Assembly: GCF_003259675.1 (NCBI RefSeq)
Contig: NZ_PZJG01000003.1
Coordinates: 62,001-126,000, forward strand
Direction of reading: 5' to 3'
Source: Macrococcoides bohemicum
GTDB taxonomy: Bacteria > Bacillota > Bacilli > Staphylococcales > Staphylococcaceae
Length of the DNA: 64,000 nt
The notes under the pieces are model-generated. The model did not search any database and was not told where the DNA came from. It was given only the letters and a program-made list of their open reading frames with translations. This document shows, in pieces, positions 17,462 through 57,923 of the stretch; the first letter of the stretch is position 1, and every line of letters begins with the position of its first letter. Position numbers and translations under genes: made by a program.

Positions 17462-17692
17462 CATCTTTTCCGATAGTTGGAGAATCCGGAAAAGATCAAG
17501 GGTATAAGCATAAAATATAGCCCAACATTTCCGGATACTAAGAGAATCCGGAAAAGATCAAGGGTATAAGCATAAAATATAGCCCAACATTTCCGGATAC
17601 TAAGAGAATCCGGAAAAGATGAAGTGCATAAGCATTAAATATGATCCAACATTTCCGGATAGTTGGAGAATCCGGAAAAGATGAAAAACTAA
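17462..17692. repeat. Four-copy hairpin array, TTCCGGAT family, 62-bp period
   Basis: Hairpins tttccggat..atccggaaa with cores at 17470 (one G lost), 17531, 17593 and 17655, spaced 61-62 bases. Loops are actaagaga or agttggaga. Spacers of about 32 bases are nearly identical (..agggtataagcat..) between copies 1-2 and 2-3 and diverged between 3-4. A lone member of the family is at 41472-41510. The rest of the gap up to 17820 is AT-rich with no feature I can support. Confidence 0.85.
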
Positions 17693-22880: not shown

Positions 22881-22943
22881 GTGTAAAGATATCTTTACAC
22901 TTGATGTTAATTATTGTATATTATCTGTAAAGATATATTTACA
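22881..22943 (+). promoter_or_regulatory. Promoter flanked by twin palindromic operators
   Basis: Operator 1 is a perfect 20-bp palindrome gtgtaaagatatctttacac (22881-22900). Operator 2, tgtaaagatatatttaca (22926-22943), is the same motif with one changed pair. Between them lie -35 TTTACA (22894-22899, inside operator 1), a 17-base spacer and -10 TATATT (22917-22922). A protein on either site would block transcription of the 22966-24051 operon; the XRE regulator encoded in it is the natural candidate. Confidence 0.75.
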
Positions 22944-22965
22944 CTTTTAACAAAGGGGGATTATT

Positions 22966-23394
22966 ATGATTGCCAAAAATTTAACGAGAAAAAAGCAAAT
23001 TAGAAATTCACTGATAGCTTGTTTAGGAATATTAATGAGTAATTATTATATTAATTATTTTATGTATCCAGAAAAATTGTATGATATAAATGCTTATATG
23101 CCAATGTTTATAGGAGCATTAACAGGAACTATTATTGTCTACTTCATATCAAAAAAGAAACACCCGGGAAACTTGAATACTAAAGTTACGGATGAGCGAG
23201 ATGAAATGTTATCAAAGGAATATAATACATTAGTATTTCCTTTTCTATTTTTATACTTACCATGTATATTTATGTTGTTAGCATTACCATTTAAAATTGA
23301 AAGCATATCTTTTTTTCAACTTTCGATTGTATGGTGGATTTTATTAATGATTTACGCAATCGGATATACTATTTTTCATAAAATTAACTCGTAA
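22966..23394 (+). CDS. Four-helix membrane protein of an XRE-controlled operon
   Basis: 142 residues from ATG 22966 behind aaaggggg. Hydrophobic segments near 15-32, 44-60, 88-106 and 115-136; a soluble loop HPGNLNTKVTDERDEMLSKEYN sits in the middle. The TDERDE element and topology recall DUF2178-type membrane proteins that often lie beside small XRE regulators, but I am not certain of the family. Its paralogue is the broken gene at 23626. First gene of the operon behind twin operators. Confidence 0.75.
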   Translation: MIAKNLTRKKQIRNSLIACLGILMSNYYINYFMYPEKLYDINAYMPMFIGALTGTIIVYFISKKKHPGNLNTKVTDERDEMLSKEYNTLVFPFLFLYLPCIFMLLALPFKIESISFFQLSIVWWILLMIYAIGYTIFHKINS

Positions 23395-23625: not shown

Positions 23626-24051
23626 ATGAAAAAAGGTATCACACTTCGTAAACAGATTCATTATTTTCTTTTGTATCTTGTAATATTGGTACTTACAACG
23701 ATGTTCATCAACTATTTCAAAAGACCAGATCAATTATATAATATAGAACAATATTGGCCGTCACTTTTAGGAGCTATAATTGGATGGGGTGTCATGTTTT
23801 ATATTCAGTATAAGAAGAACCCTGGTGGGCTGGACATTAAGATTACTGATGAGAGGGACGAATTAATTGCAAATCAATATAATTAGATAATGCTGTCTAT
23901 ATTATTATTTTATGTACCAAGCGCATTTATTTTATACGCTATTGCAATGGAGATAGAAAAGTTTTCGGTCATGTCATGTTCAATCGTTTTATGCTTGGTA
24001 TTTTTCGTTTATGGGATAGGTTTTTTATTATATAAGAACGCAAAGTCTTAA
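23626..24051 (+). pseudogene. Membrane protein paralogue of 22966, interrupted by in-frame TAG
   Basis: ATG 23626 after tggaggagg. The first 86 codons match the 22966 protein (KNPGGLDIKITDERDELIANQYN against HPGNLNTKVTDERDEMLSKEYN). Then TAG at 23884-23886 stops the frame, but reading on in the same frame gives 54 more residues with two membrane helices and a normal TAA at 24049-24051. The total, 141 codons, equals the length of the intact paralogue almost exactly. A single nonsense substitution explains it. A two-helix truncated product could still be made. Confidence 0.85.
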
Positions 24052-24063
24052 ATTGGAGAAAAT

Positions 24064-24155
24064 CAAGTCCGATATCTGACTTAAATCGGACAAGACGCAC
24101 ACCATAATCGCATAAATTCAAAAAACAAGTCCGATATGCTCAAATTATCGGACTT
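24064..24155. repeat. Two-copy hairpin array, TCCGAT family, 62-bp period
   Basis: Hairpins caagtccgatatctgactta..atcggacaag (core 24068) and aagtccgata..tatcggactt (core 24130), exactly 62 bases apart. The spacer (acgcacaccataatcgc..) is unlike that of the same family at 57766. The last copy runs into tttttct and could terminate transcription. Confidence 0.8.
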
Positions 24156-24226
24156 TTTCTATTTAACCTTTATTATTTTCCTTCCTTATAATACAATCAA
24201 ATAAACATATAAAGGGGTTGAGGTGT

Positions 24227-24688
24227 ATGTGGCATTATAAATTTTTCGAAGAGCTTAAATCTTTGGAGATTTACAAGATATATAAACTTAGAGTGGATAC
24301 TTTTATCGTAGAGCAGCAGTGCTATTATGAAGAAATCGATGAGAAGGATTTAAATTGTGTACATATATATAAAGAAGTAGAAGGTGTGATTGCTGCATAC
24401 GCGCGTATTATTCCTGAAGCGGATACGGTGCATATTGGTCGTGTTATCGTGCATCCTGATTTCCGTGGTATGGGTCTTGCTAAAGAATTGATGGATCAGG
24501 CGTTACAATATATTGATACACATCATCATTATTTAAATTTACACCTGCAAGGTCAGGCACATTTAGAAAGATTTTACGGTAGTTTTGGGTTTAATACAGT
24601 ATCTGACGTTTATTTTGTAGATTTAATTCCACATGTTGATATGGAGCGTCCTGCTTTTGGTTCGAACTCACCGTTAAAAGGAGCGTAA
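24227..24688 (+). CDS. ElaA-type GNAT acetyltransferase
   Basis: 153 residues from ATG 24227, with aagggg nine bases upstream; the earlier in-frame TTG is poorly placed. ElaA-like features: LYKLRVDTFIVEQQC-type N-terminus (here YKLRVDTFIVEQQCYYEEID), IGRVIVHPDFRGMGLAKELM with the acetyl-CoA loop (about 78-98), and LHLQGQAHLERFYGSFGF. Substrate unknown. One base separates it from ogt, so they form an operon. Confidence 0.87.
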   Translation: MWHYKFFEELKSLEIYKIYKLRVDTFIVEQQCYYEEIDEKDLNCVHIYKEVEGVIAAYARIIPEADTVHIGRVIVHPDFRGMGLAKELMDQALQYIDTHHHYLNLHLQGQAHLERFYGSFGFNTVSDVYFVDLIPHVDMERPAFGSNSPLKGA

Positions 24689-27310: not shown

Positions 27311-27321
27311 TGCTTTGTCTA

Positions 27322-27568
27322 ACGCCTATTTACGGCGACAATAAAACAACCTCGAGGCATACTTCAACAAACTCATAAACAATCAAAGAGCGATTTTTAT
27401 GGTTTGTCTCCAGTCTGCTCGAGGCTGAACGTTTTATTTTACGCCTATTTACGGCGACAATAAAACAACCTCAAGGCATACTTCAACAAACTCATAAAAA
27501 ATCAAAGAGCGATTTTTATGGTTTGTCTCCAGTCTGCTCGAGCCTGAACGTTTTATTTTACGCCTATT
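27322..27568. repeat. Two tandem 119-bp units, each a long imperfect hairpin
   Basis: Units begin acgcctatttacggcgac at 27322 and 27441, with a partial third start at 27560: exact 119-base period. The copies differ at only a few positions. Each unit folds on itself: aataaaac..cctcgag near one end pairs with ctcgagg..gttttatt near the other, and acaaactcataaa with tttttatggtttgt inside. No ORF. It fills the gap between the convergent genes at 26786 and 27567. Confidence 0.85.
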
Positions 27569-47221: not shown

Positions 47222-47372
47222 ATGGCCGACAAACTGGATTTATCGGCCAAAAATCCACAAAATTATAGGGAAATCGAGACTGATGGCCGACAAACAGTAT
47301 TTATCGGCCAAGAATCCACAAAATTAGAGGGAAAATGAAAATGATGGCCGACAAACTGGATTTATCGGCCAA
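47222..47372. repeat. Three-copy hairpin array, TCGGCC family, 61-bp period
   Basis: Hairpins tggccgacaaa..tttatcggcca with cores at 47224, 47285 and 47346, each 61 bases apart; one internal C-A mismatch per stem in all copies. Loops ctgga or cagta. Spacers begin aatccacaaaatta. A perfect single copy of the family is at 4256-4292. Confidence 0.85.
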
Positions 47373-47439: not shown

Positions 47440-47462
47440 GTAAAACAAATTAATAATTATTT

Positions 47463-47612
47463 TATCAAGAGAGACAGAGGGATATGGCCCGATGAAGTCT
47501 CAGCAGCGGACTCTAATTTAGAGCACTGTGCTAATTCCATCAAGCTCACGCTTGGCAGATAAATTCGGACGTATAACGTGCATTTAGCTACCAGCTGAGT
47601 GCACGTTTTTTA
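47463..47612 (+). ncRNA. SAM-I (S-box) riboswitch with terminator
   Basis: S-box conserved blocks in order: tatcaagaga, agagggatatggcccgatga, agtctcagcagcgga, gcactgtgctaattcca and caagctcacgcttggcagat. An expression platform follows: aacgtgc..(47575) / gcacgtt then T run (to 47612), ending just before the metN ribosome site. When SAM is plentiful, transcription of metNIQ stops here. All the canonical elements are present. Confidence 0.95.
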
Positions 47613-57765: not shown

Positions 57766-57923
57766 ACAAGTCCGATAAAAGTAATATATCGGACAAGAAA
57801 TCCCCAAATAGCCTATTTATCAATCAAACAAGTCCGATAAAAGTAGGATATCGGACAAGAAATCCCCAAATAGCCTATTTATCAATCAAACAAGTCCGAT
57901 AAAAGTAATATATCGGACAAGAT
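57766..57923. repeat. Three-copy hairpin array, TCCGAT family, 62-bp period
   Basis: Hairpins caagtccgat..atcggacaag with cores at 57771, 57833 and 57895, exactly 62 bases apart. Spacer text (aatccccaaatagcc..) is identical in the two full spacers. Other copies of this family, with different spacers, are at 24064-24155. Confidence 0.88.

Follow-up and report, generated by a model that had tools for sequence, protein, structure and literature searches.

REP/BIME elements with RAYT transposases are palindromes located at the 3' ends of genes, where they are sometimes arranged in tandem. STAR-like repeats, known for two decades, have to our knowledge no assigned function. The STAR elements of Staphylococcus consist of a conserved 14-bp motif, T(G/A/T)TGTTG(G/T)GGCCC(C/A), around which lie spacers of 40-44 bp; the spacers are locus-specific with a distinct last spacer, the copy number changes by whole units, and no function is known (Purves et al. 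2012, PMC3532100).

In the present study, a pair of hairpins was analyzed in a window of 64,000 nucleotides from the genome of Macrococcoides bohemicum, and all coordinates without a further label refer to this window. Literature searches revealed no description of such arrays in Macrococcus. The explanation that best accounts for the data as a whole, to which we assign a probability of roughly one half, is that this pair belongs, with two units, to a class of tandem hairpin arrays found between genes in Macrococcus and one or more sister genera, and that these are gene-end hairpin arrays with whole-unit turnover, stems kept as structures and a period held at the level of the DNA duplex.

The hairpin pair at 24067-24153

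The C-family pattern, GTCCGATA-N9-WATCGGAC, starts at 24067 and 24129 with a period of exactly 62, each unit being a 25-nt hairpin (8-bp stem, 9-nt loop) plus a 37-nt spacer. The first-pass annotation had reported C-family cores exactly 62 bases apart at 24068 and 24130, which was confirmed, these positions marking the TCCGA cores just inside the two hairpin starts. The features of the locus are listed below.

23890-24051, + strand: small open reading frame, stop codon 15 bp ahead of the 24067 array
24067-24091, + strand: first C-family hairpin, GTCCGATATCTGACTTAAATCGGAC, 15 bp 3' of the stop codon of the 53-aa open reading frame
24092-24128, + strand: spacer of 37 nt, class AAGACGCAC..AATCG..
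24129-24153, + strand: second C-family hairpin, GTCCGATATGCTCAAATTATCGGAC, with an 8-bp stem and a 9-nt loop, followed by TTTTTC
24218-24688, + strand: GNAT acetyltransferase gene, downstream of the array

The open reading frame at 23890-24051 gave no Pfam match, and a promoter-like site (24163-24192) is found 3' of the array. In the predicted fold the hairpin at 24067 has an 11-nt loop and 7 consecutive pairs, and hairpin energies of about -8 to -14 kcal/mol are predicted for both strands. The exact C-family pattern occurs 8 times in the 2.4-Mb genome as compared with 0 for the reversed control, and tandem hairpin arrays occur 6 times in 444 kb of the genome as compared with 0 in a shuffled copy. 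Hairpin arrays are therefore present beyond chance, and the pair at 24067/24129 is real and no artefact.

Two other repeats were noted in the window: an intergenic 119-bp direct repeat in two copies of 95% identity (27314-27551), and the palindrome TGTAAAGATATMTTTACA, present twice 44 bp apart at 22881-22946 ahead of the gene at 22966, which is operator-like.

Unit number at orthologous loci

Three further arrays of the window were used for comparison.

57770-57918, + strand: three C-family hairpins (57770, 57832 and 57894), period 62, flanked by a tRNA-synt_1b (class I W/Y) gene and a TatD gene
17466-17679, + strand: A-family array of four hairpins, stem TTCCGGAT/ATCCGGAA, period 62, 17 bp 3' of a stop codon
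47223-47371, + strand: G-family array of three hairpins, stem GGCCGA/TCGGCC, period 61, 13 bp 3' of a stop codon and before a SAM riboswitch

The first of these bears out the same 62-bp period that the first-pass annotation had seen there. The SAM riboswitch directly behind the G-family array (47459-47565; Rfam RF00162, 82 bits) was the only hit in an Rfam scan of the window.

The orthologous locus of the 24067 array contains 3 hairpins in M. goetzii and M. epidermidis versus 2 in M. bohemicum, and is composed there of two near-identical units and, after them, a final hairpin and T-run of the same type. M. epidermidis carries just one hairpin at the 57770 site, GTCCAATA-N9-TATTGGAC, whose stem shows a compensatory change; genome G003 has one longer hairpin there, and the G-family array at 47223 is missing from four relatives. 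Given this variation in unit number between relatives at 24067, 57770 and 47223, arrays emerge, grow and shrink at fixed places, and they do so by whole units. The 24067 locus had been offered as evidence that the period, rather than simple tandem copying, is what is kept. Since its orthologues in M. goetzii and M. epidermidis hold one more copied unit, the locus itself undergoes copying; the half of the proposal that stands is that the period outlasts the sequence.

Spacer text and spacer length

Plotting period against spacer identity for 33 adjacent C-family hairpin pairs from four species gave a period of 62 in 29 cases, 61 in 2, 65 in 1 and 68 in 1, with a spacer of 37 nt in 30 of the 33. 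The value of 62 is not universal: the C family also includes 61, 65 and 68, the G family has 61, and other families have 39-41. A spread of periods among unlike spacers was looked for, and spacers whose cores are identical only at chance level were still equal in length.

The spacer at 24092 had been described as unrelated to that of the 57770 array. The two share 20 of 37 positions, chiefly in the common ends AAGA...AAACAA, and their 29-nt cores are 41% identical, which is at chance (p 0.19 versus shuffled), so the description holds for this comparison. It does not hold more widely: the 24092 spacer shares 68% identity with that of an array on contig C30 of M. bohemicum itself, and 89-92% with the spacers of the orthologous arrays in M. 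goetzii and M. epidermidis. Within one locus, spacers are near-identical copies of each other; for many pairs from different loci, core identity is at the shuffled level and length is equal.

Between M. bohemicum and two relatives, orthologous intergenic DNA showed a local indel rate of 0.10-0.12 per substitution. A minimum spanning tree of the distinct spacers comprises at least 142 substitutions, for which this rate predicts 14-17 length changes; about 3 were seen. Length changes are thus about 5 times rarer than predicted, as an approximate value, given that distances were ungapped, units are non-independent and local alignments undercount indels. These results favour a constraint on spacer length that is stronger than in neutral intergenic DNA, while the text drifts. 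A second hairpin within the spacer, hinted at by a 31-bp half period in TRF, was rejected, since spacers fold no better than shuffled ones.

Families and periods in related genomes

Among named genomes the C-family pattern was nearly confined to Macrococcus/Macrococcoides (goetzii, epidermidis, caseolyticum), the three single matches in unrelated records being near chance level. Sampled stretches were further searched with TRF and for tandem hairpins de novo (0 in the shuffled controls of the first set), a survey that represents a sample of hairpin families rather than an exhaustive list. Intergenic arrays with periods of 39, 40, 41, 61 and 62 were obtained, together with STAR (58), a 65-67 array in genome G011, a 130-bp composite in genome G020 and assorted short or two-copy repeats. 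In two additional Macrococcus species, arrays with a period of 62 or 41 are built on entirely different stems; across Macrococcus and the sister genus, the periods of arrays with unrelated stems fall at 39-41 or 61-62. The same GTCCGATA stem is found with period 62 in Macrococcus and with a period 21 bp shorter, 41, in g3. Comparison of the units gave about 10 groups without detectable similarity, and some families were linked by sequence; the linkage threshold is crude, the groups may share a deep common descent, and the independence of the families is uncertain. The phenomenon is more general than a single locus, with sequence-unrelated families falling on two period peaks.

A tentative alternative to the preferred reading, somewhat less probable, is pure descent, in which one ancestral 62-bp unit and one of 41 bp spread and diverged by substitution, slippage copied whole units, and the period is a functionless frozen accident. 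The near-identical spacers within loci, the common unit ends of C-family arrays, the stem change inside a single 41-bp array (L094) and the sequence links between some families are all in line with it. Against it, length changes are in about fivefold deficit relative to the local indel rate, whole-unit copying alone does not eliminate indels, and several families without detectable similarity share the same two periods.

The combination of a repeat, a variable spacer and a fixed period also resembles CRISPR with unique spacers; here the repeat is merely a 25-nt hairpin with a variable loop, and spacers are copied within a locus. A CRISPR array was refuted by these identical spacers, and the probability of a CRISPR-like system is negligible. 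A plasmid origin of the arrays was rejected as no match was found, and a viral search gave one match, at a contig end, among 2.9 million contigs.

Several unusual arrays were recorded in the same genomes. In G020, mosaic arrays (L100:1-1000, L105:7280-7820 and L074:9455-10382) consist of successive blocks of different hairpin families, each with a period of 40-41 bp, in one intergenic region, and the 130-bp composite repeats (L096, L105, L107 and L098), with palindromes such as TCCCGTTAGAATTTCTAACGGGA, contain two 39-bp units and a longer stretch. In G011, a long array with a period of 66-67 bp and a CGCACCTC..TAGGTGCG hairpin (L125:10905-14580) has a CRISPR-like look.

Paired changes in the stem

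Among 23 distinct Macrococcus hairpins, comprising the C, A and G families and single orthologues, 6 of the 8 stem pairs have changed on both sides and 95.7% of cells pair, a comparison made partly between families, the A family being of uncertain homology to the C family, with the orthologous change at 57770 lying within one locus. The covariation score was reached in 0 of 500 shuffles. The stem is kept as a structure through paired changes while its letters change. As a guide to the acting strand, G-U versus A-C pairs were inconsistent between arrays, and wobble pairs gave no consistent pointer to the sense strand.

Two observations were made in G020. The stem shifts from TTGCTAGA to TTGCATGT within one 41-bp array (L094:1461-1788), both arms being altered and the period unchanged. 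Several g3 hairpin families, for instance those of L106:16917-17303 and L098:11659-12233, have one internal mismatch in every unit and are REP-like in this respect.

Spread of REP-like mobile palindromes by a Y1 (RAYT) transposase would explain dispersed palindromes at gene ends, and the single internal mismatch of some g3 hairpins is as in REPs. It is very improbable, as no Y1_Tnp was found in the M. bohemicum genome or in the array-bearing G002, G005, G006, G007, G017 and G020.

Position behind genes

Macrococcus arrays typically start 6-29 bp 3' of a stop codon, the exception being the AAATTGG array of M. bohemicum, 174 bp from the stop by the ORF caller. None of these arrays lies in a divergent gap, versus 43 of 136 background gaps that are divergent, in a count that lists orthologues separately and represents about 10 independent loci. 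In other genomes, arrays are often located between convergent genes.

The final hairpin at 24129 has a U-tract (6 T of 8) and occupies the site where relatives carry an ordinary terminator of different sequence. It was not called by the terminator scanner, which accepts loops of up to 8 nt and so passes over a 9-nt loop. Some final hairpins look like terminators. Read in the sense of the upstream gene, most inner hairpins and every hairpin of the arrays at 17466, 47223 and 57770 are without a U-tract and are therefore not intrinsic terminators.

These positions also bear on a further alternative that is likewise somewhat less probable, namely selfish or neutral tandem repeats that arose from ordinary terminators and are tolerated only at gene ends, their palindromes being near-perfect through template-switch repair rather than RNA selection. 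The gene-end position, the terminator at the equivalent place in relatives and the inner hairpins without U-tracts would all fit; a constant period across families is not predicted, and several g3 families retain a conserved mismatch instead of being perfected.

Discussion

We propose that the arrays would act as gene-end hairpins, in which the last hairpin at 24129 may act as an intrinsic terminator for the gene upstream, and inner hairpins may be 3'-end hairpins or bidirectional barriers. Against a gene-end function, the position behind stop codons could simply mark sites where insertions are harmless. Because 41 and 62 bp correspond to about 4 and 6 helical turns, the period is proposed to be held in duplex DNA, where it would keep the palindromes on the same side of the helix for a protein or DNA topology. 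This reading of 41 and 62 as helical phase is suggestive only, with just two peaks, blurred by the periods 39, 40 and 61, which fit an exact phase less well. A stronger form appears improbable: in Macrococcus and sister genera, the arrays would follow a ruler of about 41 or 62 bp, equal to 4 or 6 helical turns and independent of sequence, which an architectural protein or topoisomerase would read in the duplex, with selection acting on length and the sequence left free.

A class with complete sequence turnover and a held unit length offers a direct handle on the function of STAR-like repeats, and its whole-unit copy number makes the array loci usable as typing markers for Macrococcus.

Compared with intrinsic terminators, the arrays share the hairpin 3' of a stop codon and, at 24129, the T-run after the final hairpin; they differ in their tandem multiplication, fixed period and inner hairpins without a sense-direction T-run. 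REP/BIME elements are likewise palindromes of gene 3' ends and sometimes tandem, whereas the Macrococcus unit is one hairpin with a fixed spacer and no Y1 transposase was found. With STAR elements the arrays share intergenic direct repeats, locus-specific spacers, a distinct last spacer and whole-unit changes in copy number. The STAR motif, searched as TNTGTTGNGGCCC, has 0 matches in the M. bohemicum genome, and STAR periods are 55-59 (listed G027 and G029 coordinates) versus 62 in 29 of 33 cases here. STAR elements are the nearest known kind to the Macrococcus arrays.
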